IMG/VR virus record: IMGVR_UViG_3300034356_002607
Coordinates: 1-28,886 of that record
Source: a virus
Strand: one strand, 5' to 3'
Length of the DNA stretch: 28,886 bases
Translations under genes and position numbers: made by a program
Notes under the pieces: model-generated
What the model was told of the DNA's origin: nothing
Databases searched by the model: none
The model's input: only the letters and a program-made list of their open reading frames with translations
Part shown: positions 1,979-28,696 of the stretch, piece after piece
Layout: each line of letters opens with the position of its first letter
Position numbering within the stretch: position 1 is the first letter of the stretch

Positions 1979-2007
1979 TTTACAAACCGAAGGAACTGTG
2001 GTATAAT
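1979..2007 (+). promoter_or_regulatory. sigma70-type promoter fused to the next ATG
   Basis: TTTACA at 1979-1984, a 17-nt spacer, and TATAAT at 2002-2007. Exactly 6 nt separate the hexamer from ATG 2014, so predicted transcription start coincides with the start codon. Confidence 0.8.
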
Positions 2008-2013
2008 GAGCTT

Positions 2014-2211
2014 ATGCAACAGCTAAGTCCAACTGAAATTTACTCTCTCATCGAGTATGAGAAATTACGGAATTTTGTCGAGCTTGTGTCGAATGGTAAA
2101 CGACCAGATGGTTCATACAACTATTGTCGTGAAGCATTGGAAAAGAAAGCTCAGCAACTGCTGGAAGAATTAAAAGAAATTAAACAAGACGGATTGAGAA
2201 ATCTTTGCTAA
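2014..2211 (+). CDS. Small hypothetical helical protein
   Basis: A 65-residue protein, largely helical, with a charged amphipathic C-terminal half (residues 38-60). There is no recognisable domain. It is the first gene behind the 1979-2007 promoter and has no room for a Shine-Dalgarno, so its mRNA is predicted to be leaderless. The next gene starts 1 nt after its stop. Confidence 0.75.
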   Translation: MQQLSPTEIYSLIEYEKLRNFVELVSNGKRPDGSYNYCREALEKKAQQLLEELKEIKQDGLRNLC

Positions 2212-2212
2212 T

Positions 2213-2368
2213 ATGAAGCTTTGGAGAATATGGGCTAAAGCAATGGGATCAAAGATTAGCGACGATGATCGTGAATCTGATGCTGCTGCAATAGTAAGAA
2301 CAATTTTTTGGATTGTGAATTTGATTACCTGCTTTTTTATTATGGCAAATACAATACGACACTGGTAA
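2213..2368 (+). CDS. Single-span membrane protein, 51 aa
   Basis: A 51-residue frame with a charged N-terminus (KISDDDRESD) followed by one strongly hydrophobic helix, about residues 26-46 (IVRTIFWIVNLITCFFIMA), and a short TIRHW tail. It begins 1 nt after the upstream stop and ends 3 nt before the next ATG, which is the local packing style. Probably a small inner-membrane phage protein; function unknown. Confidence 0.7.
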   Translation: MKLWRIWAKAMGSKISDDDRESDAAAIVRTIFWIVNLITCFFIMANTIRHW

Positions 2369-2371
2369 AAT

Positions 2372-2518
2372 ATGAATAAAAAACCTAAAGTCACTTATGA
2401 ATGCTCGTGTTTAAAATATGGAGTTTTGAGAAGTGCTTGTAGAGGACCACACGGTTGCCAAGCCGAGAGAGACTACGAAGCATATTTGGAATCTAAAAAG
2501 CCTAAAAGTAAACGTTGA
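2372..2518 (+). CDS. Cys-rich small protein, 48 aa
   Basis: A 48-residue basic protein with cysteines in an ECSC pair plus two more in RSACRGPHGC, a spacing compatible with a small zinc site. The C-terminus is lysine-rich. It follows the previous stop by 3 nt. I do not recognise a family. The tight packing and the non-random cysteines support it being real. Confidence 0.6.
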   Translation: MNKKPKVTYECSCLKYGVLRSACRGPHGCQAERDYEAYLESKKPKSKR

Positions 2519-2545
2519 GTCTGGAAAAAACAATAAAATATAATT

Positions 2546-2734
2546 ATGACAACTATTCCTGATAAAGCAGATTTAAAGCGAATCGACAAATACAATTCTT
2601 TGGATCAACTTATGATTCTCAAAGACATTTGTAATCGCATGTATATTGCACGAAACATTACAATGTCGCAAGATTCGATGATTGACAACTTAGAAAAAAT
2701 TGATAGACTGTTCAGAGATGAAAACTACAATTGA
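2546..2734 (+). CDS. Small hypothetical helical protein
   Basis: A 62-residue, highly charged, helical protein. Its start lies in the typical A/T-only context (ATAATT before ATG) with no Shine-Dalgarno. Its last 17 nt overlap the next gene, whose ATG is at 2718. No domain is recognised. Confidence 0.7.
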   Translation: MTTIPDKADLKRIDKYNSLDQLMILKDICNRMYIARNITMSQDSMIDNLEKIDRLFRDENYN

Positions 2735-2990
2735 CATTGTTAGAGAATGTTCTGGAGCAATTATGTCAATTTGCTGTATGACTGCAGCTTTACCACAAAT
2801 TTTTAAAGTGCTTAAAACAAAACATGCATCAGATCTTTCACCACATAGTATTTGTATTGGATTGCTATGTGCTGTCTCTGGACTCATATACACACTAACT
2901 GGTCCATACGGAGTGTGGTTGTTAATTAATTGTATAAGCGGTATTATACTTCAGTCTATAGTATTAATTTGTTGGTCAAAATATAAATGA
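2718..2990 (+). CDS. PQ-loop / SemiSWEET-like membrane transporter
   Basis: A 90-residue protein with three predicted membrane helices (about residues 10-29, 44-64 and 67-87) and the PQ-loop signature LPQIFKVLKTKHASDLS after helix 1. This is the size and layout of one triple-helix bundle, as in bacterial SemiSWEETs, which dimerise to move small sugars. ATG 2718 is chosen over the upstream TTG at 2700 because it starts right before the first helix. Sugar transport is the family expectation, not something the sequence proves; PQ-loop proteins also carry other small solutes. It is unusual cargo for a phage. Confidence 0.8.
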   Translation: MKTTIDIVRECSGAIMSICCMTAALPQIFKVLKTKHASDLSPHSICIGLLCAVSGLIYTLTGPYGVWLLINCISGIILQSIVLICWSKYK

Positions 2991-2994
2991 TATT

Positions 2995-3297
2995 ATGAAA
3001 GAGATTCAATTTGTGTCTGACCTCACTGAAGCAGAAGTGCGACAACTATTATTTGATATCTACGAGCGTATTCCAATCGCTGGTGAAGATCTGTCTTACT
3101 CAGCACTGCCAGATAAAATTACTCGCTATGTTAATGAAGCGCATCGTCTCTTTGCACTAGAAGAAGCGGTAACAGCATATATTGTTGATGAATGTAACAA
3201 TGGAGACATTGGCGTTCAAGATCCGATTAACTTTTTGCTTGCATCTCATCGTATGCTAAGGCATAATCTACACGATACTTGGAAAGAAGAATATTAA
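2995..3297 (+). CDS. Hypothetical protein, 100 aa
   Basis: A 100-residue, acidic, mainly helical protein with no recognised domain. It begins 4 nt after the PQ-loop gene (TGATATTATG) and is followed 1 nt later by a small membrane protein, so it sits in the middle of an operon. Confidence 0.75.
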   Translation: MKEIQFVSDLTEAEVRQLLFDIYERIPIAGEDLSYSALPDKITRYVNEAHRLFALEEAVTAYIVDECNNGDIGVQDPINFLLASHRMLRHNLHDTWKEEY

Positions 3298-3298
3298 T

Positions 3299-3469
3299 AT
3301 GAAAATAAAACTAGAAAAAATTGAAGAGGCATCAGATCGTGCACTAAACAAATTAGAAAATTTAGAGCAGAAATTAAAAAATTTGGATGCTGACACCAAA
3401 CAAAATAAAATTATAATTTGGGTGATAGCATTTATTATTGCTGCAATTATAATCGCACTTAAATCTTAA
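3299..3469 (+). CDS. Coiled-coil protein with C-terminal membrane anchor, 56 aa
   Basis: A 56-residue frame. Residues 4-32 form a heptad-like charged helix (Leu and Ile spaced 3-4 apart), and residues 38-53 form a hydrophobic helix, giving a tail-anchored topology with a short KS end. It starts 1 nt after the upstream stop and ends 3 nt before the next ATG. Function is unknown; the layout would suit a small oligomerising membrane protein. Confidence 0.7.
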   Translation: MKIKLEKIEEASDRALNKLENLEQKLKNLDADTKQNKIIIWVIAFIIAAIIIALKS

Positions 3470-3472
3470 ATT

Positions 3473-4318: not shown

Positions 4319-4347
4319 TGTACATTTTTCGAGTTTTAGTGTATAAT
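4319..4347 (+). promoter_or_regulatory. sigma70-type promoter fused to the next ATG
   Basis: TGTACA at 4319-4324, a 17-nt spacer, TATAAT at 4342-4347, and 6 nt to ATG 4354. Same geometry as 1979-2007. Confidence 0.75.
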
Positions 4348-4353
4348 TAGGCT

Positions 4354-4944
4354 ATGATTATTGATACATACAGTCCCAATCCTTGGAGAGTTTTTAAACA
4401 TCCTTCGCTGCTGTTTAACAGCTTTTATTGGAGCGATATCAAATACCAAATCAAAGCATGGTTTAATCCACGTCAGAAATGGTTGACAAAAACTATTCCT
4501 AACACATGGTGTGACAAGACTGCTCTTATTCCGCACTTACTTTTTACTTGTCTCACACACTATGTAGAAGACGAAAAAGGTCTTCAAGATCACATTGATT
4601 GGACTGAAGATCTTGAAAAAGGATATATCTCGCAAGAGTATGTTGATAGTGTTAAAAACACTGATAATGAACTTCGTGAGGTTTATAATTATATTAAAAC
4701 TGAACGTCCCGAACTTGAAAAACAACATGAGAATTCTTATCCAACACCAAGTTCAAAAGCAATAAATGATATTTTTGTTGAGAATAAAGATGGAAGCTGT
4801 ACAATGAAAAGCTGTGAAGAGCTTTATGGTATGCCATATAAAGAAGCATATGCTAAGACTCATCGTCTTGAAGCACTAATTGAAGAAAAAGATATGTGGG
4901 CTATGAAGACTATCATCAAACACTATCAAAAAATGTGGACATGA
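4354..4944 (+). CDS. Hypothetical protein, 196 aa
   Basis: A 196-residue soluble protein. The first ~75 residues are rich in Trp, Phe and Pro, with motifs such as FNPRQKWLTK and IPNTWCDK. The rest is helical and charged. It is the first gene behind the 4319 promoter and is predicted to be translated from a leaderless message. Its stop overlaps the next start as ATGA. I recognise no catalytic motif. Confidence 0.75.
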   Translation: MIIDTYSPNPWRVFKHPSLLFNSFYWSDIKYQIKAWFNPRQKWLTKTIPNTWCDKTALIPHLLFTCLTHYVEDEKGLQDHIDWTEDLEKGYISQEYVDSVKNTDNELREVYNYIKTERPELEKQHENSYPTPSSKAINDIFVENKDGSCTMKSCEELYGMPYKEAYAKTHRLEALIEEKDMWAMKTIIKHYQKMWT

Positions 4945-8032: not shown

Positions 8033-8048
8033 AAAACTAGAATATAAA
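8028..8048 (+). promoter_or_regulatory. AATAAAAAACTA-type promoter motif
   Basis: AATAAAAAACTA at 8028-8039, 3 nt, TATAAA at 8043-8048, then 7 nt to ATG 8056. A member of the recurring motif family described in findings. Confidence 0.7.
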
Positions 8049-8055
8049 AACACAT

Positions 8056-8310
8056 ATGAATGGTAAATTTTTTAAATGCGATTGCGGACATGGGGGACTT
8101 TATGTGAGTCATGATCCAGATTTTGGAACAGAGTTCGCTCATTTTCAATATGATATTTCTATTGGTTTTCTTTTCAGAATCAAACAAGCGTGGATGACTT
8201 TAAGAGGAAAACCTTACACTGATATGACTATTCTAAATGACCAAGAATTAGCAAATCTCGTTGATCATTTAGCAGAAATTCAAAATCTTGAATACAAAAA
8301 AGATTACTAA
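8056..8310 (+). CDS. Hypothetical protein, paralogue of 3473-3730
   Basis: An 84-residue protein with an N-terminal CDCGHGG cluster and the block KPYTDMTILNDQE, matching the 3473 protein along its whole length. It heads a transcription unit behind the 8028 promoter, with thyX next. Its role is unknown; the shared Cys/Gly cluster suggests a metal site. Confidence 0.8.
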   Translation: MNGKFFKCDCGHGGLYVSHDPDFGTEFAHFQYDISIGFLFRIKQAWMTLRGKPYTDMTILNDQELANLVDHLAEIQNLEYKKDY

Positions 8311-9350: not shown

Positions 9351-9563
9351 GTGAACTTCAAAAACAAAGAAGAAGCTATAACTTTACTAAAGGAACATAA
9401 CATAAATGTTTCAAATGACCTGTATGTACTCTACCCAAAAATTGGATTTTTTCCAACCGATGCTTACAAAGCAATAAACTATCTCGTAGACGATTGCGGA
9501 TTTGGATTAAAGTATGTTGATGTCACCTCAATAAATAATTCATATGATTCCTCGAAAAAGTAG
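9351..9563 (+). CDS. Hypothetical protein, 70 aa
   Basis: A 70-residue protein from a GTG start. It looks like a small alpha/beta domain (EEAITLLKEHNINVSND, then VLYPKIGFFPTDAYKAINYL) without a recognisable family. It overlaps the next gene by 20 nt. No ATG start lies upstream in frame. An inverted repeat precedes it. Confidence 0.65.
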   Translation: MNFKNKEEAITLLKEHNINVSNDLYVLYPKIGFFPTDAYKAINYLVDDCGFGLKYVDVTSINNSYDSSKK

Positions 9564-11961: not shown

Positions 11962-11982
11962 AATAAAAAACTAGAGTAATCT
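11962..11982 (+). promoter_or_regulatory. AATAAAAAACTA-type promoter motif
   Basis: AATAAAAAACTA at 11962-11973, 3 nt, TAATCT at 11977-11982, 6 nt to ATG 11989. The geometry predicts a leaderless message for the ATPase gene. Confidence 0.7.
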
Positions 11983-11988
11983 AACGTC

Positions 11989-12945
11989 ATGTTATTAAAT
12001 CACGAACATGTTGAATTTACTCGTATTGGAGATGTATCCATTCCAAGTAGTTACTTTAATAGAATTAAAACAGGCGATGATGAATTAGATTCTATATTCG
12101 GAGATGGTATATTGCCAGGATCTACGATGACTTTAATAGCAAAACCAGGAACTGGTAAAAGTGTATTTTCTTTAATTCTTTCAGAAAAGTTAACAACCAA
12201 GGGATACAAGGTTGGTTATACATCTGGAGAAGAAGATATTAGACAAATCGCATACAATGCGAAGCGTTTGAATGTTAAAAATTTAAAAATTGCCACAATC
12301 ACAAATGTAGATGAAATCGTACAGCATATGAAGAATATGGATTTCTTGGTGATTGATAGCTTTCAATGTTTAACAACCGATAATGATTTGAATTCAAGAC
12401 AAAAGGTTCAATATTTTGTCAATACATTGATTAAAAAAGCTAAAGTATACGATTGCGCTTTGCTTTTCATTGTTCAAATGACAACAAGCGGAGAACTGAA
12501 AGGCGGAACTACTTTACCATATGCTGTTGATGTTAATTTGAAAATTGACAAAGACGAAGAACTTGGTAAAGATTATAGAATAATCAATGTTTACAAGAAT
12601 AGATTCGGACCAACAGCACAATACAAAGCAATCATGGAATCATCTGGATATACATTTTTGGGAGCGTATGAACCAGAGGAAAAAGTAAAAACCTCAAAAG
12701 TTTCAATATCACAAACAAGGAAGAATCATATCATTAATATGGTAGAACCACCTTTGATTACTGTTGCGCGTGTATCTGAAGAACTTGACATTAGCACACA
12801 AACTGCTAATAATATATTGAGAGAGTTGGTTGCAGAAAATAAATTATGCAAATATGGCAGAGGATCAGAATCAGTATGGAAAGTGAATTCAATAAAAGAT
12901 GAAACTTTTCTAAAAGAATTAGTCAAACAATTAGAATCGAAATAA
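11989..12945 (+). CDS. RecA/RadA-type ATPase with C-terminal winged helix
   Basis: A 318-residue protein. Walker A AKPGTGKS is at residues 51-58, and Walker B FLVID at about 119-123. The GYTSGEED segment and the overall order match the RecA-superfamily core of RadA/KaiC/DnaB-type proteins. A polar linker follows residue 230. A C-terminal winged helix-turn-helix (ITVARVSEELDISTQTANNI) probably binds DNA. It could be a recombination mediator, Sak4-like annealing factor or helicase-like loader; I cannot decide which. It is leaderless by promoter geometry and overlaps the next gene by 1 nt (TAATG). Confidence 0.85.
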   Translation: MLLNHEHVEFTRIGDVSIPSSYFNRIKTGDDELDSIFGDGILPGSTMTLIAKPGTGKSVFSLILSEKLTTKGYKVGYTSGEEDIRQIAYNAKRLNVKNLKIATITNVDEIVQHMKNMDFLVIDSFQCLTTDNDLNSRQKVQYFVNTLIKKAKVYDCALLFIVQMTTSGELKGGTTLPYAVDVNLKIDKDEELGKDYRIINVYKNRFGPTAQYKAIMESSGYTFLGAYEPEEKVKTSKVSISQTRKNHIINMVEPPLITVARVSEELDISTQTANNILRELVAENKLCKYGRGSESVWKVNSIKDETFLKELVKQLESK

Positions 12946-13315: not shown

Positions 13316-13336
13316 AATAAAAAACTAATTTAGTAT
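13316..13336 (+). promoter_or_regulatory. AATAAAAAACTA-type promoter motif
   Basis: AATAAAAAACTA at 13316-13327, 3 nt, TAGTAT at 13331-13336, 6 nt (AAGGGC) to ATG 13343. Confidence 0.7.
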
Positions 13337-13342
13337 AAGGGC

Positions 13343-15451: not shown

Positions 15452-15457
15452 CAATAT

Positions 15458-15931: not shown

Positions 15932-15938
15932 AGATTAA

Positions 15939-16209: not shown

Positions 16210-16219
16210 GAAGTACGAC

Positions 16220-16750: not shown

Positions 16751-16771
16751 TATAAAAAACTAAATTACCAT
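16751..16771 (+). promoter_or_regulatory. TATAAAAAACTA-type promoter motif
   Basis: TATAAAAAACTA at 16751-16762, 3 nt, TACCAT at 16766-16771, 6 nt to ATG 16778. It directly follows the terminator, as a new transcription unit should. Confidence 0.75.
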
Positions 16772-16777
16772 AGTTGC

Positions 16778-17704: not shown

Positions 17705-17723
17705 TAAGAAACTAGATTAAACT
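17703..17723 (+). promoter_or_regulatory. AATAAGAAACTA-type promoter motif before rIIA
   Basis: AATAAGAAACTA at 17703-17714, 3 nt, TAAACT at 17718-17723. ATG is 23 nt away, so this unit would have a leader of about 17 nt, the longest of the set; no Shine-Dalgarno is in it. Confidence 0.6.
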
Positions 17724-17746
17724 AGTGCCATCATCAAACACAAACT

Positions 17747-19627
17747 ATGAAAATTGGAATTACAACATCACCAACAATCGCATCAGACTCGCTTCAAAAA
17801 AGCACCATGGGAATGTCTGCCAAAGGCATGGACATTGCCGCATACTTCCTGCGTGACAAGATTTACAATGATAAAATTCTTGCATGCGTTCGCGAATATA
17901 TTTGCAATGCTGTTGATGAACACAAAAAGTACGAGATTGATCGTCCAGTTGTTGTTGCAATCAAAACAGTAAAAAATACCAAAACTTGGAGCGTTAGAGA
18001 TTACGCTAAAGGTTTGGATGAACATGGTGTTCGTAACATTTTTGGAATGTATTTCGAAAGCACCAAAAACCATTCCAATGAATATGTAGGTGGTTTTGGT
18101 ATTGGTTCAAAAGCGGCACATTCATATACCGATACATTTTACATCAACTCTTATTACAACGGTGTTTGTAGTGTGTATGCATGCGTTCTTGGTGGAGGAG
18201 ACAAAGGTGTTCCAATCGGAGAGATTTTTAAGATCTCTGAAGAACCTACAAACGAAAGTGGAATTGAAATTTCTTTTGAAGTATCAGACAGTGATTCATA
18301 TTCATTTAGGAATACAACTTCCAAATTTGTTAAAAATCTACACCATGATACAAAGATTGAGTTTCTTTCTGATAACTCTGAAACTGTAGTTCCAGATTCA
18401 CCGATTCATTCTGTCAAACTGGGAGAATATGGAATGCATCAATATAAAAAATCTCATCAAGATTATGATTATAATCACATTTATATTCGTATGGGAGGTG
18501 TGGTATATAAAAAGATTCCCATTCGATTCTGCACTTTTAATAATGAAAACATATATGTTGTCGATGTTCCAATTGGAAAACTCAGCATTCCAATTTCAAG
18601 AGAAAGCATAGAAGATACACCAAACAATCAAAAAGTTATCAACGATATTGTGTCACATATCGAAACTTTTAAGAATGAACAAATCAGTAAAATTGTTCCT
18701 AAACCTCTGGGTGAATATGTCAAAAGCAAAACTTCAAAGTATTTCGAGGATGATTGGTTTACTTATGCCATGTCTGAATATATTCCAGAAACCCATGCGG
18801 CATTAATGAGTATAAAAGCATATGAAGTTGCATATTTAAATAATCTTGAATACTCTAATGGTAAGCTTCCAATTTATAAACTTCCAAATATTAAAAATTT
18901 AAAAAATTGGAAGTTGCGTCTAGCAAAACATCTTGCAGGTTTTGCAAATTACCACGGTTTTGTTTATATTCAAGATGAATCACCGCTCGATTCAAACTCT
19001 TGTAATGTTGACACTTCAGACATTGAGATCATTGATGTTAAAAAGATGAAGCTTCCAAAGCTTGAGAAAAATAAAACTTTGATGAAATATAACGTATTCA
19101 GTCGTTACAATAAACTTGGTTCTTTTACCAGTGAAGAGTTTGAAGAATATGTAGACAATAAGTTTGGAGAAATCTCTGATTCAAATTGGCACGAAACAAT
19201 TGATTGTATTAATCACCTTTTTCATCGTACAATTTATCATAATAATGAGTACACAAACAATGATCCTTACTGTGTATCAAGCAAAAGTAAAAAAATGGTA
19301 GATCAACTTCATGATTTGGGTTGGTTGCATCCAGATTCCACTGAATACAAAAACGCACACACCAGACTTAAAAATCTTGAAGAATTTCAGAAAAAACAAA
19401 GAAGCATTGAATATGATTTGACATGCACATGCAATGCAATTAATATCAACCCAACTGTTCTTAAACATCTCAAAAGGTATCCAGATAAAATTGAAAAGAT
19501 CAAAAAGATCATGACAAACATTAGAGCAGAAAATTCTACCAGAAGTCGTATTTACAACAGTGTGTCTCGATATGGATCACCATTGGATAGACGCGATCTT
19601 CGTAAACTCCTTCTGATAAAAGATTAA
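17747..19627 (+). CDS. rIIA: rIIA-like GHKL ATPase-domain protein
   Basis: A 626-residue protein with a GHKL-type ATP-binding domain in its first ~200 residues: the N-box YICNAVDEH, the G1-like RDYAKGLDEHGV, and the G2 glycine segment GGFGIGSKAAH. This matches the rIIA family of T4-related phages in size range and architecture. In T4, rIIA and rIIB are membrane-associated and protect infection against RexAB-type exclusion and modulate lysis; whether that holds here is inference. rIIB follows 57 nt downstream with its own promoter. The C-terminal two thirds have no catalytic motif I recognise. Confidence 0.9.
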   Translation: MKIGITTSPTIASDSLQKSTMGMSAKGMDIAAYFLRDKIYNDKILACVREYICNAVDEHKKYEIDRPVVVAIKTVKNTKTWSVRDYAKGLDEHGVRNIFGMYFESTKNHSNEYVGGFGIGSKAAHSYTDTFYINSYYNGVCSVYACVLGGGDKGVPIGEIFKISEEPTNESGIEISFEVSDSDSYSFRNTTSKFVKNLHHDTKIEFLSDNSETVVPDSPIHSVKLGEYGMHQYKKSHQDYDYNHIYIRMGGVVYKKIPIRFCTFNNENIYVVDVPIGKLSIPISRESIEDTPNNQKVINDIVSHIETFKNEQISKIVPKPLGEYVKSKTSKYFEDDWFTYAMSEYIPETHAALMSIKAYEVAYLNNLEYSNGKLPIYKLPNIKNLKNWKLRLAKHLAGFANYHGFVYIQDESPLDSNSCNVDTSDIEIIDVKKMKLPKLEKNKTLMKYNVFSRYNKLGSFTSEEFEEYVDNKFGEISDSNWHETIDCINHLFHRTIYHNNEYTNNDPYCVSSKSKKMVDQLHDLGWLHPDSTEYKNAHTRLKNLEEFQKKQRSIEYDLTCTCNAININPTVLKHLKRYPDKIEKIKKIMTNIRAENSTRSRIYNSVSRYGSPLDRRDLRKLLLIKD

Positions 19628-19650: not shown

Positions 19651-19678
19651 TTGACAAAACAAACAAACAAACTATAAT
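19651..19678 (+). promoter_or_regulatory. Consensus sigma70 promoter fused to the rIIB ATG
   Basis: TTGACA at 19651-19656, a 16-nt spacer of AAAC repeats, TATAAT at 19673-19678, 6 nt to ATG 19685. Both hexamers are perfect consensus. Confidence 0.8.
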
Positions 19679-19684
19679 AATACT

Positions 19685-20683
19685 ATGACATACATCATCA
19701 ACCAATCCGCAATTATTTTGTTTATCAACAATGGTTCAGTTCGTGTTGAAAAGACAGATCGTAAATATCCAAAAATCATTAAATCTTTCACTCTTCCAAG
19801 TGATGAGCAAGAAGATGCTATCAATGAAATTTTGTATCCAATTGATTTCACTCTTGAATCTATTGATAAAGTAGAAGGATTTGAAATCATTGAAGATCAA
19901 GTTTATTACAACGGAGAAGCATTGCCTCCAGCACTATCTCAAAAGGTAGAAAGCATTGTTCGTGATGATCTTCCTCTTGAACATTTCACTAAATTCTGGA
20001 ATAATCTTGAAGATAATCCTGCCTCAAGTTCTGTTGATGAGCTTATGGAGTTTCTTGAATACAAAGAACTTCCAATTACAGATGATGGTTGCTTTCTTGC
20101 ATACAAAGGTGTATCAGAACATTATTACAGCATTCATGGTAATCCTAAAACTGTCGTTGTTCAAGGTATTACAACAACAGACGGTAAGATTTTCAACGGT
20201 GTTGGTTCCAAGATTGAAGTCAAACGCCGCAATGTAGATGACAATAGAAACAATCATTGTAGTTTCGGTTTGCATGTTGGTTCTCTTGATTATGCTCGTT
20301 CTTTCGGACAGAGAGTAGTCGTAGTCAAAGTCAACCCTAAAGATGTTGTTAGCGTTCCAACTGATTACAATTGCCAAAAGTGTCGAGTATCAGCATACGA
20401 GGTCGTTTCTGATTATGAATATGAAATCGAATCTTCGGTGACTGATGGAGAAGGTAATGATAATCTCGTGCCAAACTTTGCAAAAGAACGCACAGCTTTT
20501 GTGGAGAGAGTTGAAAAATATCTCAACAACAAACGCGATGAAGGATATGATGATGTTAGTGTCAGACAAATTCAAAATAGTTTCTCTCCAGAATATCCAT
20601 CAAAACAAGAAGTGTTGGATGCTCTTCAAGAACTCAATGAATACTGGGACGAAATCGATGGCGTGACTCTTGTTATTTTGTGA
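19685..20683 (+). CDS. rIIB: rIIB-like protein
   Basis: A 332-residue protein with the rIIB landmarks: an N-terminal domain (ILFINNGSVRVEK), then GCFLAYKGV, VDDNRNNHCSFGLHVGS, VVVVKVNPKDVVSVPTDY and KCRVSAYEVV. This region matches the family closely. A C-terminal extension of ~80 residues (EVVSDYEYEI onward, then a helical winged-helix-like SVRQIQNSF segment) goes beyond the T4 core. It acts with rIIA, and the tandem order is the classical one. Predicted leaderless from the promoter at 19651. Confidence 0.9.
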   Translation: MTYIINQSAIILFINNGSVRVEKTDRKYPKIIKSFTLPSDEQEDAINEILYPIDFTLESIDKVEGFEIIEDQVYYNGEALPPALSQKVESIVRDDLPLEHFTKFWNNLEDNPASSSVDELMEFLEYKELPITDDGCFLAYKGVSEHYYSIHGNPKTVVVQGITTTDGKIFNGVGSKIEVKRRNVDDNRNNHCSFGLHVGSLDYARSFGQRVVVVKVNPKDVVSVPTDYNCQKCRVSAYEVVSDYEYEIESSVTDGEGNDNLVPNFAKERTAFVERVEKYLNNKRDEGYDDVSVRQIQNSFSPEYPSKQEVLDALQELNEYWDEIDGVTLVIL

Positions 20684-20742: not shown

Positions 20743-20763
20743 AATAAAAAACTATTATATACT
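20743..20763 (+). promoter_or_regulatory. AATAAAAAACTA-type promoter motif
   Basis: AATAAAAAACTA at 20743-20754, 3 nt, TATACT at 20758-20763, 6 nt to ATG 20770. Confidence 0.7.
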
Positions 20764-20769
20764 GAATTT

Positions 20770-21093
20770 ATGCAAACAATGATTAAAGAATATATCAGAG
20801 ATGATAAGTACAACCCACGTGGTGTTGTGGTAGCTGTAAAAGAAAACGATCAAGTTTATTATGGTTATTCTTTGTGCAGTCCACATGACAATTATGACAA
20901 AGAAACAGCAATGAAAATCGCTCTTAATCGCGCATTGTCTGAGAAAGGATTCACTCTTCCTAAAGTTCCTGCAACTCGTGAATTAATCTTTGATAGGTTT
21001 CGTTCTGTTGAAGCTAGAGCTTTGAATTATTTCAAAGACGTTCCAAGGGAAAATGTCAGAATTGAATTTACTGAAGAATATACAGCACTATAA
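20770..21093 (+). CDS. Hypothetical protein, 107 aa
   Basis: A 107-residue protein with an N-terminal beta part (RGVVVAVKEND, YYGYSLCSPHDNYDKETAMKIALNRA) that resembles a small phage family I have met as unnamed proteins. The C-terminal helix is charged. It is the first gene of a unit leading into the RNA island. It overlaps the next gene by 1 nt (TAATG). Function unknown. Confidence 0.75.
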   Translation: MQTMIKEYIRDDKYNPRGVVVAVKENDQVYYGYSLCSPHDNYDKETAMKIALNRALSEKGFTLPKVPATRELIFDRFRSVEARALNYFKDVPRENVRIEFTEEYTAL

Positions 21094-23118: not shown

Positions 23119-23135
23119 ATCTAATAAATATAATA

Positions 23136-23558
23136 ATGAAACACAGAGATCAAATTTTACTTAGTGAAGCATATAGTAAGATTATTGAAAGCATGCACGG
23201 TGATAATTGGCAAGAGACTAGTTGGGAAGATACAACAAATGACGGTAAATTAGTTAAAGTAACTATTAGTGATTTGTTTGCTTTTTCTAAGGATATGCCT
23301 ATATCAGAAATAAATGTTGATAGTCTTAAGCCTTTAGCTCTTCACCAAACTAAAACTGATCCCGAAACATTAGCTAATATTCAAAAAGCTAATCTTGACT
23401 ATCCAATTTTAATTTTAAATAAAAACAACGGAAAGCAGTCAATTTTAGATGGGCATCACAGACTTCAAAAAGCAATTACAAATAAAATAACTAAAATAAA
23501 AGCTAAAGTTTTAAATATTTCTGACATGCCAGAAGATTGGCAGTGGCTGTTTTCATAA
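23136..23558 (+). CDS. ParB-like nuclease-domain protein
   Basis: A 140-residue protein. The N-terminus has ILLSEAYSKI, a motif of several phage proteins. The ParB/Sulfiredoxin-like core is DYPILILNKNN followed by SILDGHHRLQKAI (residues about 108-120), the ParB box II type GxHR motif. Such single-domain proteins in phages may be nucleases, CTPases or DNA-binding regulators; no ParB HTH is attached. It sits alone between tRNA-Gly and the next RNA block. Confidence 0.8.
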   Translation: MKHRDQILLSEAYSKIIESMHGDNWQETSWEDTTNDGKLVKVTISDLFAFSKDMPISEINVDSLKPLALHQTKTDPETLANIQKANLDYPILILNKNNGKQSILDGHHRLQKAITNKITKIKAKVLNISDMPEDWQWLFS

Positions 23559-24055: not shown

Positions 24056-24092
24056 TCTATGTTTTTCTATTGTGCTTTATTAAATAAAAACA

Positions 24093-25271
24093 ATGATTGA
24101 TGGTATCATACATACATTACGTAATGAAGATGACTTAGAATTTATTTTAAAAAATGGGTTGCGCAGAGGAACCAATGTGAGCATAGATTCAAGATTACCA
24201 AATCAATCATTCACTGGTTATGGAATAACTTTAATGTATGATAATAAATCTATAAAATATAAGACCAAAGAATATAATTCAAATGAAGGTATAGTATTAC
24301 AACATTTAAATAAAAAACCAACGGCTATATTAATCGGAATAGATGATTTTAGAGAAGATGATTATGATTTAGACGACAATAAAATCGAAGAATATAAAAA
24401 AAGAAAAAAATATTTAGATGAGCGCATAAATAATATATTAAAAACTATTAATATAAAATTAAAAAATATTGAATCTAAAATAAACAAATTAATTTATATA
24501 GAAGAAGTAGATGATGAGCACGGAGAACGTTTTATTTTTTTATATCCAAAAACAAGATCTGGTGAATATGAATACAGTGTAGATGTTAGTAATATTAAAC
24601 ACAGCAGTATACATGATCTTTATAAAATAGTAGGAAATGAAAAAATGCATACATTTTACAATACAGATATTCCTAAACTTTTGAATAGTTATATGGATAT
24701 TAAAGCTAGAAAAATAAGTTTTATTCATGAATATGAATATCTTAAAAACTTAAACTTTGAAGATATAGCAAAAAATAAAAATAAAATAGATAAAAATAGA
24801 GCTTTGAATTATGTTAAATATCTGAATTTACCTAAAAATATCTCAATGTATTATTACACTACAAATTCAAACGGAACAGCCAACATTATCCCACTGTTAG
24901 AAGAAAAAATGTCTCAATATGAGACATTAAAACTGCTAGAAAACATGCAAAAGAATGATATATACACTATTATTCCAGGGGATGGGTATATATTCAATAC
25001 AGAGTTTAATGAAATACATCAATATGACGACAAAATGTATGGTGAAATTCTCGATGGTCAAAAAATTGTAAAGTTTGAAAATGGTCAGATGGTCAAATTA
25101 AGTGATTTTAAAAGAGATTTATTAGTTTGTCACAAACATTTAAAAATATATGGTGAAAAGGGTAAAATAAAAACAGACGGACTGCCAATTACAAGAATAA
25201 TGGTAAAAATGTATCCAAATTTTAATCATAAATCTGGATATTTTCCATTACAAGTAATAGATGATATATAA
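24093..25271 (+). CDS. Large unknown protein, possible ADP-ribosyltransferase-like N-terminus
   Basis: A 392-residue, very Lys/Asn/Ile-rich protein coded by DNA poorer in G+C than its neighbours. The start IIHTLRNEDDLEFILKNGL, RRG, then FTGYGITLMYD has the look of the ART fold (a His near the start, an IL-x-NGL segment, and a G-x-GI-x-L strand), as in DarT, KptA or PARP-like proteins. A coiled-coil-like helix covers residues 100-135. The rest (FEDIAKNKNKIDKNRALNY, NGTANIIPLL) matches nothing I know. The ART idea is weak. It is isolated between RNA genes, as accessory cargo often is. Confidence 0.7.
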   Translation: MIDGIIHTLRNEDDLEFILKNGLRRGTNVSIDSRLPNQSFTGYGITLMYDNKSIKYKTKEYNSNEGIVLQHLNKKPTAILIGIDDFREDDYDLDDNKIEEYKKRKKYLDERINNILKTINIKLKNIESKINKLIYIEEVDDEHGERFIFLYPKTRSGEYEYSVDVSNIKHSSIHDLYKIVGNEKMHTFYNTDIPKLLNSYMDIKARKISFIHEYEYLKNLNFEDIAKNKNKIDKNRALNYVKYLNLPKNISMYYYTTNSNGTANIIPLLEEKMSQYETLKLLENMQKNDIYTIIPGDGYIFNTEFNEIHQYDDKMYGEILDGQKIVKFENGQMVKLSDFKRDLLVCHKHLKIYGEKGKIKTDGLPITRIMVKMYPNFNHKSGYFPLQVIDDI

Positions 25272-25416: not shown

Positions 25417-25427
25417 GTATTTTTAAC

Positions 25428-25584: not shown

Positions 25585-25603
25585 CCTTTATAATAAAAAA
25601 CAT

Positions 25604-25631
25604 TTGCATATTAAAACTTTAATGATATAAT
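25604..25631 (+). promoter_or_regulatory. sigma70-type promoter fused to the next ATG
   Basis: TTGCAT at 25604-25609, a 16-nt spacer, TATAAT at 25626-25631, 6 nt to ATG 25638. Same leaderless geometry. Confidence 0.7.
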
Positions 25632-25637
25632 AACTTT

Positions 25638-25763
25638 ATGAAAACTAAAACAACAAAAAACGACAACAGAATTAAGAGAAAAGGAATTCATGCCAAAACG
25701 AAATCTTCCCGTTTGAAGAATTCAAAAAATTACAAGAAAAAATATGCCAAGCAAGGGAGGTGA
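25638..25763 (+). CDS. Very basic small protein, 41 aa
   Basis: A 41-residue protein with about 40% Lys+Arg: RKGIHAKTKSSRLKNSKNY then KKKYAKQGR. The GIHxKTKxSxxKxSKNYxKxY pattern resembles small unnamed proteins I have seen in other phages. It is almost certainly a nucleic-acid binder, perhaps RNA given its place beside the tRNA genes, but this rests on charge alone. Own promoter, predicted leaderless. Confidence 0.75.
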   Translation: MKTKTTKNDNRIKRKGIHAKTKSSRLKNSKNYKKKYAKQGR

Positions 25764-25771: not shown

Positions 25772-25792
25772 AAATAAAAACTAGATTATAAC
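25772..25792 (+). promoter_or_regulatory. AAATAAAAACTA-type promoter motif
   Basis: AAATAAAAACTA at 25772-25783 (one A fewer than the main form), 3 nt, TATAAC at 25787-25792, 6 nt to ATG 25799. Confidence 0.65.
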
Positions 25793-25798
25793 AATCAG

Positions 25799-25861
25799 AT
25801 GTTTAAAATAAACAACCTCTATATTATTTTTTATATTTTTGTGCTAAATAATATAGCATGA
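25799..25861 (+). CDS. 20-codon leader ORF upstream of the GIY-YIG gene
   Basis: ATG 25799 sits at the usual 6 nt from the promoter hexamer. The frame encodes 20 residues (MFKINNLYIIFYIF and six more), hydrophobic, and its TGA overlaps the endonuclease start as ATGA at 25858. It may be a leader peptide that delivers ribosomes to the endonuclease, or the left stub of a gene interrupted by the endonuclease insertion. Confidence 0.5.
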   Translation: MFKINNLYIIFYIFVLNNIA

Positions 25862-26535
25862 TTGTATATATGGTTACTAATAAAATTAATGGAAAACAGT
25901 ATATAGGATATACTACAAAAACTTTAGAAGAAAGAAAGAAAGCGCATTTATGTAAAGCAAATTCACCTTCTAATAAACATTATTTTTATCTTTTTAAACA
26001 AGCAATACGTAAGTATGGTATTGATAACTTTGATTGGGAAGTTTTAGAAACTTGTAATTCAATTAAAGAGTGTTGCGATAAAGAAATTTATTATATAAAT
26101 AACCACAATACTATTTCTCCTAATGGTTATAATCTAACAGAGGGTGGTAATGGTGGTATACCATCAGAAGAAACTAAATTAAAAATATCAAAATCTTTAA
26201 AAACATATTGGCATAATAATAAAAATTTAAATAACATGGTAAAAGCTACAACAGAAAATAGGAGTGCTTGGGCTAAAAAAAGTTGGCAGATAAAAAAACA
26301 AAAAGGATATGTCAGACCATCTTATACACACAAAGAAGATTCTAAAAATAAAATGAGTTTAACAAAAAACGAACTCAATAAAATTAAATGGTTTAATGTG
26401 TATACTTTAGAAACATTGGAATTATCTTTGACAGATATGTCTAAAAAAACAGGATTATCTATAGGTGCATTCAATCATTTAAAACAAGGAAGACAACTAC
26501 AGACTAAATGTGGTTGGAAACTAATAAAAAACTAA
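25858..26535 (+). CDS. GIY-YIG homing endonuclease
   Basis: A 225-residue free-standing endonuclease. The GIY-YIG module occupies residues 1-95: VYMVTNKINGKQYIGYT, LEERKKAH, NFDWEVLE (catalytic Glu) and GYNLTEGGNGG. The C-terminal half is basic, with NUMOD-like repeats (TKLKISKSLKTYW and LTDMSKKTGLSIGAFNHL) that bind DNA. It lies between a promoter plus leader ORF and the next promoter, which overlaps its stop, as expected of an insertion between two transcription units. Its target is unknown; it may also mobilise the intron in the tmRNA gene 3 kb upstream. Confidence 0.88.
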   Translation: MIVYMVTNKINGKQYIGYTTKTLEERKKAHLCKANSPSNKHYFYLFKQAIRKYGIDNFDWEVLETCNSIKECCDKEIYYINNHNTISPNGYNLTEGGNGGIPSEETKLKISKSLKTYWHNNKNLNNMVKATTENRSAWAKKSWQIKKQKGYVRPSYTHKEDSKNKMSLTKNELNKIKWFNVYTLETLELSLTDMSKKTGLSIGAFNHLKQGRQLQTKCGWKLIKN

Positions 26536-26543
26536 GATATTAT
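26523..26543 (+). promoter_or_regulatory. AATAAAAAACTA-type promoter motif
   Basis: AATAAAAAACTA at 26523-26534, 3 nt, TATTAT at 26538-26543, 6 nt to ATG 26550. It lies across the stop codon of the endonuclease gene. Confidence 0.7.
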
Positions 26544-26549
26544 AAAGCC

Positions 26550-26735
26550 ATGTCAAACAAATTCAAAGCACCTATCAAAGTAATCAAAAGCAGTTGGAGA
26601 TCAGAATCGTTTAAGAAACCTTCAAGTCGAGGTGTTATTGTTTCTCGTAGTCTTTATGGAAATAGTAATACATTGACTAAGGTTGATGGAACATATGTAT
26701 CCAAAGGCAACATGTTCAGCGGAAACATGTATTGA
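26550..26735 (+). CDS. Small basic hypothetical protein
   Basis: A 61-residue basic protein (KAPIKVIKSSWRSESFKKPSS, then YGNSNTLTKVDG). ATG 26550 is chosen over the in-frame ATG of the longer frame at 26508 because it is the one set by the promoter. It ends 1 nt before the tilS-like ATG. Function unknown; co-expressed with the TilS-like gene. Confidence 0.7.
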   Translation: MSNKFKAPIKVIKSSWRSESFKKPSSRGVIVSRSLYGNSNTLTKVDGTYVSKGNMFSGNMY

Positions 26736-26736: not shown

Positions 26737-27372
26737 ATGATTAGACTTGATAGATCATTAATTCCTAAAGAAGATTTTTGTGTTGCTGTAAGTGGAGGAA
26801 TTGATTCTATAGCATGTTTACACTTGCTATCAAGGTTATACAAAGATAAAGTATCTGCCTGTCACTTCAATCATAACTTCCAATCAACAAATGCAAAAAT
26901 GCAGAGAGTTGTTGAAAGATTTTGCTCGCAACATAATATCAAATTAGTCTTGGGTAAAAGAACTAACTTTAATGATAATGTCAAACATGGAATTGAAGAT
27001 CATCTTAGAAAAGAAAGACTTAAATTTTTTTCTAGTCTAAACAAAGATATTATTGTGTGTCATCATCTCAATGATGCTGTTGAATCATATTTGATGAATA
27101 CATTAAAAGGTTGTCCAGAATACACACCCATTCCAATCGCAACTAAATTTCATAATAATAATCATAAAATGATTCGTCCTTTTTTGAAAACAAAAAAGTC
27201 GAATATAAAAGACTACATTGATAATAATAACCTTTGGGAATTTGTTGTAGAAGATCCTACAAACAATGATACCAAATACAGAAGAAACTTTATTAGAAAT
27301 TCAATACTTCCAAATCTTAATAACTTTGGTTTAGAGAAAATTGTTTATAAAAAATTCTATTGCATTAATTAG
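26737..27372 (+). CDS. tilS: TilS-like tRNA(Ile)-lysidine synthetase, short form
   Basis: A 211-residue N-type ATP pyrophosphatase. The P-loop SGGIDS is at residues 19-24. TilS-specific blocks follow in order: HFNHNF, EDHLRKERLKFF, HHLNDAVESYLMNTLKG, IRPFLKTKKSNIKDYI, then EDPTNNDTKYRRNFIRNSILPNL. All family motifs of the catalytic domain are kept; the C-terminal tRNA-binding domains of the ~430-residue E. coli enzyme are missing. The family turns CAU of tRNA-Ile2 into k2C-AU, which reads AUA. CAU tRNAs are encoded at 22257 and 23883. Start ATG 26737 follows the previous stop by 1 nt. Confidence 0.85.
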   Translation: MIRLDRSLIPKEDFCVAVSGGIDSIACLHLLSRLYKDKVSACHFNHNFQSTNAKMQRVVERFCSQHNIKLVLGKRTNFNDNVKHGIEDHLRKERLKFFSSLNKDIIVCHHLNDAVESYLMNTLKGCPEYTPIPIATKFHNNNHKMIRPFLKTKKSNIKDYIDNNNLWEFVVEDPTNNDTKYRRNFIRNSILPNLNNFGLEKIVYKKFYCIN

Positions 27373-27387
27373 AAACTAGATTAACAT
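27367..27387 (+). promoter_or_regulatory. AATTAGAAACTA-type promoter motif
   Basis: AATTAGAAACTA at 27367-27378 (covering the tilS stop), 3 nt, TAACAT at 27382-27387, 6 nt to ATG 27394. Confidence 0.65.
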
Positions 27388-27393
27388 ACTGAC

Positions 27394-27621
27394 ATGCGAC
27401 TCACTTACAGCAAGCGTTTGAAAGGTTCAAACAACAAAACATTCATCAATGTTTCTAAAGACAATGAACCTTATGGTCAAATCTATACTTGGCAAAACAC
27501 CAAAACCGATCAACATCCTTGGCATGGTAAAAAAACCACAGGAAAACATTTCTGCAGTTATGGAGATGGTAATAAATCTGAAGGTTTGCATGATGTAATT
27601 GATTGGATGAATAAACAATAA
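27394..27621 (+). CDS. Small basic hypothetical protein
   Basis: A 75-residue protein, rich in Lys, Thr, His and Trp (TWQNTKTDQHPWHGKKTTGKHFCSYGD). Beta-rich, no recognised family. Predicted leaderless. It is followed 5 nt later by tRNA-Leu, so the tRNA is probably co-transcribed and processed from this message. Confidence 0.7.
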   Translation: MRLTYSKRLKGSNNKTFINVSKDNEPYGQIYTWQNTKTDQHPWHGKKTTGKHFCSYGDGNKSEGLHDVIDWMNKQ

Positions 27622-27626
27622 TAAAT

Positions 27627-27713
27627 GGCCACGTGGTGAAATTGGTAAACACTGCGGACTTAAAATCCGTTGCCCTAATCGGCTTGTCGGTTCGACCCCG
27701 ACCGTGGCTACCA
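27627..27713 (+). tRNA. tRNA-Leu (UAA), CCA encoded
   Basis: Class II tRNA. Acceptor GGCCACG/CGTGGCT (G1-U72), anticodon stem GCGGA/TCCGT with loop CTTAAAA (TAA), a long variable arm, T-arm GTCGG-TTCGACC-CCGAC, discriminator A and CCA. It stands 2 kb from the main island. Confidence 0.93.
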
Positions 27714-27719
27714 TCTATT

Positions 27720-27740
27720 AATAAAAAACTAAAATATAAA
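27720..27740 (+). promoter_or_regulatory. AATAAAAAACTA-type promoter motif
   Basis: AATAAAAAACTA at 27720-27731, 3 nt, TATAAA at 27735-27740, 7 nt to ATG 27748. Confidence 0.7.
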
Positions 27741-27747
27741 ACACATC

Positions 27748-28137
27748 ATGAAGATCAGAATTGACAACATTGGCGCACAACCTCCGACCTATATTGGTAA
27801 ACCTCCAGAGGATGTAGACAATAGACTGGTTATTGTTAAGTACTTTCCTAATGGTAAATACGGTAAATTGCAAGAATATATTGATGTTCTTGGGTGGGAG
27901 AATGATGGAGATTATGTCAGAAAAAATATGTGTAGCATTCACAAGAACTGCTTTGAAGGCAAAGAGAATATTATAGTGATTGCTGATCTTACCTATAGCA
28001 CTAAAGAAGAAGACACATTCTTAGAGACTGTAGGTGAGCGAGTGTTAGATCTATCACTAGAAGATCGTGAAACTTTCTTTGAGGTGTATGCTCTTGCGGC
28101 AAAGAAACTAGCTGAGGCTTATAGTGACAAAGACTAA
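27748..28137 (+). CDS. Hypothetical protein, 129 aa
   Basis: A 129-residue acidic alpha/beta protein (RIDNIGAQPPTYIGKPPED, then helical DLSLEDRETFFEVYALAAKK at the C-terminus). No recognised family. It is the first gene of a unit predicted to be leaderless, with three small genes after it. Confidence 0.75.
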   Translation: MKIRIDNIGAQPPTYIGKPPEDVDNRLVIVKYFPNGKYGKLQEYIDVLGWENDGDYVRKNMCSIHKNCFEGKENIIVIADLTYSTKEEDTFLETVGERVLDLSLEDRETFFEVYALAAKKLAEAYSDKD

Positions 28138-28141
28138 AATT

Positions 28142-28402
28142 ATGGCAACGTATCGAATAATTAAAAGGAGGTTAGGAGTTGATAGCAAAGAGATCTATCA
28201 TGTAGAGAGAAAGGTTCTCTGCTTCTGGTTTGACATACTTAATAACTCCTTTATATTTGGCATTGACGATGTTGCTAATTATAAAAGTTGGTTTAATTCT
28301 AAAGAAGAAGCTTTGGCAATCATCGATAAGTTGATGCAGCCTAAGAAAAAGAGAAAAGAAGTTGTTTGGACAAACGACCCTCAACCAAAAATGAACTATT
28401 AA
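28142..28402 (+). CDS. Hypothetical protein, related to 14265-14534
   Basis: An 86-residue basic protein. YRIIKRR, YHVERKVLCFWFDI, FNSKEEALAII and KEVVW line up with the protein at 14265, suggesting diverged paralogues. ATG 28142 follows the previous stop by 4 nt (TAAAATTATG) and is preferred over the extension to 28124. Function unknown. Confidence 0.75.
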   Translation: MATYRIIKRRLGVDSKEIYHVERKVLCFWFDILNNSFIFGIDDVANYKSWFNSKEEALAIIDKLMQPKKKRKEVVWTNDPQPKMNY

Positions 28403-28405
28403 ATT

Positions 28406-28519
28406 ATGAGTATGGCTATAATCATTATGTGGATAGCAATAATAGTTTTAGCATCTCTGGCAACATTTGCAGTATGCTATATCATCTATAAAGCTAGTGA
28501 TGATGATCTTTGGTATTAA
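28406..28519 (+). CDS. Membrane peptide, 37 aa
   Basis: A 37-residue frame with one membrane helix (residues 4-27) and a short ASDDDLWY tail, similar in layout to the peptide at 7934 (helix then acidic end). Starts 3 nt after the previous stop (TAAATTATG). Function unknown. Confidence 0.6.
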   Translation: MSMAIIIMWIAIIVLASLATFAVCYIIYKASDDDLWY

Positions 28520-28529
28520 GGAACACTGA

Positions 28530-28535
28530 TATAAT
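28530..28535 (+). promoter_or_regulatory. Candidate -10 element TATAAT
   Basis: TATAAT ends 5 nt before ATG 28541 with the same TAGGT-like spacer as at 4348. No good -35 is seen (TTGGTA at 28510 is only 14 nt away), so this is weaker than the others. Confidence 0.45.
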
Positions 28536-28540
28536 TAGGT

Positions 28541-28696
28541 ATGAACGACGATAAAAAACACGAAGCAAAAATTAAACGTCTTCAAGGAAAGATAGACGAT
28601 TTGAAAGATGATTTACTGGTTGCTAATGCTGAAATACATAAGCAAAACACATTCTGTATTATGAACAAGAATGGCGAAGAAACTTTCAAAAACTAA
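28541..28696 (+). CDS. Small coiled-coil protein, 51 aa
   Basis: A 51-residue protein, residues 5-33 forming a charged heptad helix (HEAKIKRLQGKIDDLKDDLL), then NTFCIMNKNGEETF. Predicted leaderless or with a very short leader. Function unknown. Confidence 0.65.
   Translation: MNDDKKHEAKIKRLQGKIDDLKDDLLVANAEIHKQNTFCIMNKNGEETFKN

Follow-up and report, generated by a model that had tools for sequence, protein, structure and literature searches.

Why should the -10 hexamers of a phage genome stand at one short, fixed distance from its start codons? The question is raised by the IMG/VR virus record IMGVR_UViG_3300034356_002607, classed as linear, whose whole sequence of 28,886 bases (33% GC) is the window analysed here. 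A sequence-only reading of this window had listed sixteen transcription units in which a -10-like hexamer ends 5-7 nucleotides (nt) before the ATG, and had predicted from them systematic leaderless mRNAs. In our analysis, promoter and translation start very probably form one fused element in this phage and its relatives, with leaderless mRNAs predicted for the first genes of transcription units and stop-start coupling for the genes downstream. The prediction agrees with most of its consequences in the sequence, namely a peak at a spacing of 6 nt, a third promoter class placed on the same +1, depletion of Shine-Dalgarno sequences, a pyrimidine before the ATG and an initiator at position 7 past the -10 hexamer. 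Contrasts between phages fit as well: the pattern is lacking in T4 and almost lacking in a pelagiphage, and phiYS40 shows the 6-nt peak for TANNNT.

All sixteen listed units carry the hexamer where it was claimed to be, as read from the sequence and re-measured (Table 1). The spacing is exactly 6 nt at twelve starts (2014, 4354, 11989, 13343, 15458, 16778, 19685, 20770, 25638, 25799, 26550 and 27394), 7 nt at three (8056, 15939 and 27748) and 5 nt at one (28541), and the two exceptions that had been named, rIIA at 17747 (23 nt) and the gene at 16220 (10 nt), are as described. For rIIA a 17-nt leader lacking a Shine-Dalgarno sequence is predicted. The hexamers at 11989 (TAATCT) and 13343 (TAGTAT) are weak and have better TATAAT matches nearby; their register is set by an upstream box that fixes the position. 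Such a box is present at ten of the 16 starts, where 15 nt (8 sites) or 16 nt (2 sites) separate its end from the ATG.

From its homologues we assign the window to a phage of the T4 superfamily. A megablast search with its first 20 kb against 50,697 named phage records, a set from which near-identical records were possibly excluded, matched nothing. A record of 138.7 kb, G001, contains a nearly identical sequence (median identity 100% over 41 reciprocal best hits), and a second of 184 kb, G002, has 73 reciprocal best hits to G001, with a median protein identity of 53%. In the best hits listed, the terminase, DNA polymerase and capsid proteins match T4-superfamily proteins at about 31-37% identity, and homologues of gp23, gp20, gp21, terminase, gp43, gp55 and rIIA/rIIB are present at 28-37%. 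The capsid relatives used are the best 80 of at least 582. Three records, G003, G007 and G014, appear to be near copies of G001 by the order of their boxes and were not taken in as whole records.

A sharp genome-wide peak at 6 nt had been predicted, and it is seen in six of seven related records; the seventh, G006, has no clear peak. Genes were called as open reading frames (ORFs) from the first ATG, in the same way for the controls, and those less than 60 nt from a contig end were dropped. TANNNT ends exactly 6 nt before the start in 24 of 193 genes of G001 (background 6.3 per position), 55 of 300 of G002 (background 6.6), 21 of 161 of G005, 27 of 85 of G013 and 42 of 110 of G011, an enrichment of 3.8 to 19 times background in these five records. 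Among the controls, T4 (1/78) and the pelagiphage Mosig (2/56) lie at or below background, and the first 50 kb of phiYS40 reach 8/58, or 5.9 times background. When genes are called by the full rule for the three promoter classes described below, the counts are 69/193 in G001 and 121/300 in G002, compared with 0/78 in T4, 2/56 in Mosig and 6/58, all of class A, in phiYS40. The related records are not independent of one another; clustering left the picture unchanged.

The sequence-only reading had distinguished two promoter classes sharing one fixed distance. Both are present. Class A is sigma70-like, with a TTGACA-like hexamer, 16-17 base pairs (bp), a TATAAT-like hexamer, 6 nt and the ATG. Its -35 hexamer is clear at 2014, 15939 and 19685, weaker at 4354 and 25638 and absent at 28541, and a TTGACA-like hexamer is enriched 27-29 nt from the ATG in G001 and G002. 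Class B has the form AAAAACTA-N3-TANNNT-6-ATG and was found fused to an ATG in 56 stretches in a scan of a public collection. Counts of 6-mers by position, made with no prior motif, recover its box in G002, where AAACTA stands at distance 15 in 49 cases against 0.6 expected. The first ATG lies at 6 nt after 186 of 327 unique class B elements, a count that, like the one for transfer RNA (tRNA) genes below, leaves out loci L095-L097 and L001. Its 12-base core, AATAAAAAACTA, was also searched without reference to ATGs in 14 records, four of which have one copy: in 9 of the 10 records with at least two copies all lie on a single strand, as in G001 (0 forward, 22 reverse). The next ATG falls 5-7 nt past the -10 position for 32 of 50 copies in seven records, and for 22 of 28 in the six records other than G001.

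Chance combined with selective reading of a sequence with 33% GC is, on these figures, a negligible explanation. Of the 1259 other ATGs in the window, 130 (10%) do have a TA-initial hexamer with at least 4/6 TATAAT matches at a spacing of 5-7 nt; the same holds for 15 of the 16 claimed starts. This difference and the flat profiles of T4 and Mosig rule chance out, and the 6-nt enrichment in five records and the strandedness of AATAAAAAACTA stand against it as well.

Two classes is, however, an undercount, and the single distance holds for classes A and B, at mainly 6 nt, whereas a third, class C, has the form TAAATA-5-ATG. The motif-free counts place TAAATA at distance 5 before 19 of 193 genes in G001 (0.6 expected) and 39 of 300 in G002 (0.5 expected). 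Before 889 called genes of 53 further loci it lies at distance 5 in 279, at 6 in 52 and at 7 in 33, with 0-5 cases at each distance from 0 to 4; this count is not dereplicated, includes near copies and the gut loci L098 and L099, and leaves out loci shorter than 9 kb (29 of 82). The same preference appears with no gene calls at all. The first ATG after 1,484 unique TAAATA sites lies at 5 nt in 319 cases and at 6 nt in 68, while the remaining distances from 0 to 29 account for 5-37 cases apiece; clustering leaves 1162 sites, 187 of them with the first ATG at 5 nt and 51 with it at 6 nt (both counts without loci L095-L097, L001, L180, L181, L098 and L099). In five phages tested, class C stands before at most 0.14% of ATGs other than called starts; for called starts the share is 9.8-13.6% in four of these phages and 1/85 in G013. 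Portal and prohead protease genes have TAAATA 5-6 nt upstream in both G001 and G002, as do the sheath gene and one tube-like gene of G002 at 5 nt. Proteins resembling gp55 are encoded in G001, G002 and G005; T4 gp55 retrieves G001_22582_23037 with a phmmer E-value of 7.5e-16.

The two spacings can be compared with the geometry of the promoters. The sigma70 -10 hexamer spans -12 to -7, leaving 6 nt to +1. This is consistent with the definition of TA-led genes in PMC3160421. The T4 late octamer is given a start at -13 in PMC2988020, and so ends at -6 and leaves 5 nt to +1, matching the class C spacing; the first two bases of the octamer vary in our class C sites, where +1 is a predicted position. 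That the spacing differs between 6 nt (A and B) and 5 nt (C), as the geometry of each class demands, points to a +1 at the ATG.

Transcription preferentially starts on a purine (+1) that follows a pyrimidine (-1), and the class B elements carry this signature. Among 249 clustered elements, taken from the same loci as the clustered TAAATA sites, the ATG begins at position 7 in 138, and a pyrimidine stands just before it in 137 of these. The other 111 elements have their ATG elsewhere; 85 of them nonetheless have a pyrimidine-purine pair at positions 6/7, against 26% in sequence further downstream, and the neighbouring pairs at 5/6 and 7/8 are found in 7 and 17. As the initiator is kept at 6/7 without an ATG, the start appears to be set by the promoter and the ATG to be placed onto it. 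Class C behaves similarly at distance 5, where 169 of 187 clustered sites have a pyrimidine just ahead of the ATG. Of the 58 distinct tRNA genes in the loci retrieved, 6 also have a class B element no more than 60 nt upstream (0.39 expected), at distances of 6, 6, 10, 11, 14 and 37 nt, one of the six tRNAs being of undetermined type. With an initiator that does not require a fused ATG and with elements linked to tRNA genes, class B behaves as a promoter.

Shine-Dalgarno sequences, counted as GGAG, GAGG or AGGA within -18 to -5 and compared with a control window further upstream, are found in 5 of 193 genes of G001 (control 10) and 8 of 300 of G002 (control 25). Five other records agree, and the motif is depleted in all seven. 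The window alone, with 1 against 0 in the control for 48 genes, offers too few cases to tell. The frequencies elsewhere are 41/78 in T4, 35/56 in Mosig and 19/58 in phiYS40.

Fusion is concentrated in genes that are not closely coupled, that is, genes more than 12 nt from the upstream stop. Among these, fused starts number 106/169 in G002, 71/87 in G011, 35/61 in G013, 56/114 in G001, 34/78 in G005 and 20/60 in G006, compared with 15/131, 5/25, 1/24, 13/79, 12/83 and 7/73 of the closely coupled genes in the same order of records. In the window the figures are 14/28 and 0/20 under a strict rule by which 8056 and 27748, among others, go uncounted. Much of the gene set thus begins either at a promoter or close to the preceding stop. 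The downstream genes lack Shine-Dalgarno sequences and often begin a few nt past the preceding stop, and are therefore presumably translated by stop-start coupling. The word systematic, applied earlier to the leaderless mRNAs, would fit the fused genes, which make up between a third (G006) and four fifths (G011) of the non-coupled genes; it does not extend to the major capsid gene or to the class B promoters that are predicted to be leadered.

The depletion of Shine-Dalgarno sequences, together with the frequent T before ATGs genome-wide, could suggest that the elements are a translation-initiation or start-codon context in an A/T-rich genome, in a host that does not use Shine-Dalgarno pairing, and that their likeness to -10 hexamers is apparent. 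We consider this very unlikely. Such a signal is unexpected before tRNA genes, it does not predict an initiator kept without an ATG, and it offers no ground for two motifs with two distinct fixed spacings; these three observations lead us to reject it. The TTGACA-like hexamers at 27-29 nt in G001 and G002, the gp55 homologue and the scarcity of elements before closely coupled genes (in G002, 15/131 against 106/169) also stand against it. Promoters fused to start codons remain the preferred reading.

Several observations weigh against that reading, or at least against its uniformity. In G006, TANNNT lies at 6 nt in just 6/132 genes, although TAAATA is nonetheless found at 5 nt in 14 genes of this record, and the -35-like TTGACA has no peak in G006 or G012. 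The next ATG lies 5-7 nt past the -10 position for only 10 of the 22 AATAAAAAACTA copies in G001. Besides its main spacing, class B shows another peak at 9 nt (51 of 327 unique elements), with distances trailing off to 36 nt, so that some of its promoters would be leadered; the pyrimidine-purine pair is also raised at 9/10 (62/111) and 11/12 (63/111), which we attribute to this 9-nt mode. TAAATA at distance 6 shows no pyrimidine preference (21/51 clustered sites), and such sites may therefore be inexact. None of the elements is found at the major capsid gene of either G001 or G002, or at the G002 terminase gene. In G001, 58 of 193 genes are neither fused nor closely coupled, some of which are probably wrong calls of the simple gene finder, and 25 of the 73 pairs of G001 and G002 orthologues have a class in one phage only or differ in class. 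As for factors, no MotA or AsiA homologue was detected (best phmmer E-values 0.38 and 0.32, at which a diverged homologue could escape), and no phage-encoded aid to leaderless translation was found among the ribosomal S21 and IF3 families, each with 0/3 records.

The irregular spacings also feed an alternative in which the promoters are real and the leaders very short (1-10 nt), with A/T-rich, Shine-Dalgarno-independent leadered translation. From the 9-nt mode one would expect leaders of 3 nt, ACC-AUG for example; a minority of class B elements has predicted leaders of 15-30 nt that are often CA-rich, and spacings of 5-8 nt are found in several classes. Against it stand the exactness of the main mode (186/327 at 6 nt in class B; 279 at 5 nt against 52 at 6 nt in class C), the two spacings that differ by class as +1 geometry demands, and the pyrimidine before 137 of 138 fused ATGs in clustered class B elements. 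We judge this alternative improbable and retain the fusion of promoter and start codon.

The arrangement is conserved between the two lineages. Among the 73 orthologue pairs of G001 and G002, both members belong to class C in 11 pairs, to class B in 2 and to class A in 1, the surrounding sequence having diverged, and in 34 pairs neither member has a class. The KaiC/DnaB-type ATPase gene at 11989 is one whose G002 orthologue has a class B element at equal spacing. Intergenic gaps of 14 and 21-22 nt are prominent in G002, G011 and G013. With a gap of 14 nt, the stop TAG of the upstream gene is that of the ACTAG in the box, and the promoter is thereby written in the last codons of that gene. In loci L092, L078 and L090 (from G011, G002 and G013) small genes, some of which are paralogues, follow one another in runs, and every gene of such a run has a class B promoter to itself, in many cases spelled by the closing codons (...KILKN-stop) of the copy before it.

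These runs invite the thought that class B marks sites of recombination or the boundaries of cassettes and is carried along as small genes spread, its distance to the ATG being a result of copying. T4-type phages reportedly shuffle genes with regulatory cassettes, and many small genes in G002, G011 and G013, some paralogous, share the element, often within the 3' end of the preceding gene. As a substitute for promoter function this is extremely unlikely, leaving class A, class C, the initiator register and the elements before tRNA genes unexplained; it is compatible with promoter function and may hold in addition. Keeping to fused promoters, we lean, if narrowly, towards the broader view that a large T4-like branch gave up ribosome-binding leaders, that its sigma70, new middle-type and gp55 classes all became fused to the AUG in one element of 25-30 bp, and that class B serves as portable one-gene cassettes for shuffling small genes.

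How such a system might work can be sketched. Three RNA polymerase specificities would each begin transcription at the A of the ATG or no more than about 3 nt away. The host sigma70 holoenzyme would read class A for early genes, a separate factor or a modified holoenzyme would read AAAAACTA-N3-TANNNT in class B, and a gp55-type late sigma would act at TAAATA in class C for late genes, the timing being assigned from gene content. With +1 at the ATG, the first gene of a unit would be made from a leaderless mRNA, and ribosomes would presumably bind its 5'-terminal AUG directly, the usual way with leaderless mRNAs. Two candidates for the class B factor were rejected: a MotA-type middle promoter, no homologue having been found, and an additional region-4 sigma (PF04545, 0 matches in 5 records, with positive controls). 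The single-subunit RNA polymerase family PF00940 gave 0/5 records, and the control genomes gave no match either.

Comparison with known systems suggests both likenesses and differences. The Thermus phage phiYS40 presumably belongs to another lineage, and its thermophilic host is known for leaderless genes. Most of its middle and late mRNAs are reported as leaderless in PMC3594737. It resembles the present phages in its TANNNT-6 peak (8/58 in the first 50 kb) and differs in having Shine-Dalgarno sequences in 19/58 genes and class B or C at the exact fused spacing in 0/58. A strategy of its kind would involve a phage-driven change in initiation factors IF2 and IF3 that favours leaderless mRNA; here the IF3 family is found in 0/3 records, and effects on host factors would not be visible.

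T4 middle promoters combine a phage-specific upstream Mot box near -30 with a -10 hexamer; class B likewise has a phage-specific box and a -10, but the box differs in sequence and place, ending 3 bp before the -10. With the T4 late promoters, served by gp55, gp33 and gp45, the present phages share a gp55-like sigma and a TAAATA core before portal, prohead protease, sheath and one tube-like gene. In the T4 late region, by contrast, TAAATA lies 9-46 nt from the ATG and 24/39 annotated genes have a Shine-Dalgarno sequence, compared with mostly 5 nt and depletion here, and our major capsid gene, unlike that arrangement, has no TAAATA.

In Actinobacteria and Deinococcus-Thermus, TA-led leaderless genes have TANNNT about 10-12 bp upstream of the start (from the first T in Zheng), with about 6 nt between, and are interpreted as leaderless in two reports (Zheng 2011, PMC3160421; Zhong 2025, PMC12340547). 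As described there, such genes share with ours the spacing of about 6 nt to the start codon and the lack of a Shine-Dalgarno sequence; they are cellular and have one sigma70-type -10, compared with three classes in a phage. The TANNNT arrangement of Zheng 2011 with 6 nt between is seen in part of our genes, and not clearly in G006. In phiKZ, a phage-specific middle motif is centred near -24 and a late TATG motif overlaps +1, and, unlike here, a multisubunit RNA polymerase of the phage acts at the late promoters (PMC4666361); the words leaderless and untranslated do not occur in the main text of that paper. Among titles and the openings of abstracts, a sample with subscription papers mostly outside, no T4-like phage was described as leaderless. 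Compared with phiYS40 and the cellular leaderless genes, the novelty lies in the T4 background, in three promoter classes that are all fused, and in the class B element, which as far as our searches show is an undescribed phage promoter.

Leaderless translation, usually held to be a minor route, appears to be the main route for the first genes of this T4-like group, including head and tail genes such as portal, prohead protease and sheath, though not the major capsid gene. If the reading is true, it provides a natural system in which much phage expression depends on recognition of a 5'-AUG, and it points to a host whose ribosomes favour leaderless mRNAs. The rule itself (-10 at 6 nt, TAAATA at 5 nt) offers an easy check of start codons in uncultured T4-like genomes.

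Clues to the host are few. WhiB, which we take to be an actinophage marker, is found in 0/16 records. A search with the capsid protein against 84,980 bacterial and archaeal genomes matched 16 stretches, two of which encode a relative (44-48% identity). Both are contigs of gut metagenome-assembled genomes, L098 and L099, labelled Lachnospiraceae and Paludibacteraceae; these labels do not settle the host. Shine-Dalgarno sequences are found in 0/23 and 0/17 of their called genes, hinting that the Shine-Dalgarno-poor state extends to gut relatives, and TAAATA lies there at 6-8 nt, not 5.

Table 1. Promoter elements and start codons in the window (coordinates are window positions; ATG, first base; span, whole element).
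Class	Upstream element	-10 hexamer or TAAATA	Spacing (nt)	ATG	Span	Strand	Remark
A, fused	TTTACA 1979-1984	TATAAT 2002-2007	6	2014	1979..2016	+	
A, fused	TGTACA 4319-4324 (4/6)	TATAAT 4342-4347	6	4354	4319..4356	+	
A, fused	TTGACA 15904-15909	TATCAT 15926-15931	7	15939	15904..15941	+	thioredoxin-domain gene (PHROG)
A, fused	TTGACA 19651-19656	TATAAT 19673-19678	6	19685	19651..19687	+	rIIB; class B element 19631-19646 just upstream
A, fused	TTTGCA 25603-25608 (4/6)	TATAAT 25626-25631	6	25638	25603..25640	+	41-aa basic protein
		TATAAT 28530-28535	5	28541	28530..28543	+	no convincing -35
B	AAAACTA 8033-8039, N3	TATAAA 8043-8048	7	8056	8033..8058	+	
B	box 11967-11973	TAATCT 11977-11982	6	11989	11967..11991	+	KaiC/DnaB-type ATPase
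B	box 13321-13327	TAGTAT 13331-13336	6	13343	13321..13345	+	
B	box 15436-15442	TACAAT 15446-15451	6	15458	15436..15460	+	
B, not fused	box 16194-16200	TACAAT 16204-16209	10	16220	16194..16222	+	
B	box 16756-16762	TACCAT 16766-16771	6	16778	16756..16780	+	UvdE
B, not fused	box GAAACTA 17708-17714	TAAACT 17718-17723	23	17747	17708..17749	+	rIIA
B	box 20748-20754	TATACT 20758-20763	6	20770	20748..20772	+	
B	box 25777-25783	TATAAC 25787-25792	6	25799	25777..25801	+	20-codon ORF
B	box 26528-26534	TATTAT 26538-26543	6	26550	26528..26552	+	
B	box GAAACTA 27372-27378	TAACAT 27382-27387	6	27394	27372..27396	+	
B	box 27725-27731	TATAAA 27735-27740	7	27748	27725..27750	+	
C (T4-late type)		TAAATA 403-408	5	414	403..416	+	PhyH dioxygenase; absent from the earlier list
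C		TAAATA 23125-23130	5	23136	23125..23138	+	
C-like		TAAATA 9532-9537	6	9544	9532..9546	+	
C-like		TAAATA 24081-24086	6	24093	24081..24095	+	
C-like		TAAATA 25845-25850	7	25858	25845..25860	+	GIY-YIG endonuclease

The genes of the window include rIIA, rIIB, thyX, uvdE, a KaiC/DnaB-like ATPase, a GIY-YIG endonuclease and a PP-loop ATPase. The stop of the 20-codon ORF at 25799 overlaps the start of the GIY-YIG endonuclease (25858) as ATGA, and the endonuclease also has its own TAAATA. Seven tRNAs and one transfer-messenger RNA (tmRNA) are encoded as well. In the tmRNA, at 22343-22941, the tag reading frame terminates in ...ELALAA and a stop. Its Rfam match stops at 22717, and the acceptor stem (22343-22349 with 22931-22937, then ACCA) closes about 220 nt beyond, as judged by eye. 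This suggests that the T-arm carries an insertion, perhaps an intron; no intron family came up in a permissive Rfam scan. Two stretches, 23560-24060 and 25264-25420, have no convincing protein gene, and the first contains a weak tRNA-like match of 31 bits (23883-23951). One of the tRNAs, with anticodon CAT (22257-22334), and the PP-loop ATPase (26737-27372), of the ATP_bind_3 family to which TilS belongs, occur together in this one phage and might form a tRNA-Ile lysidine pair.

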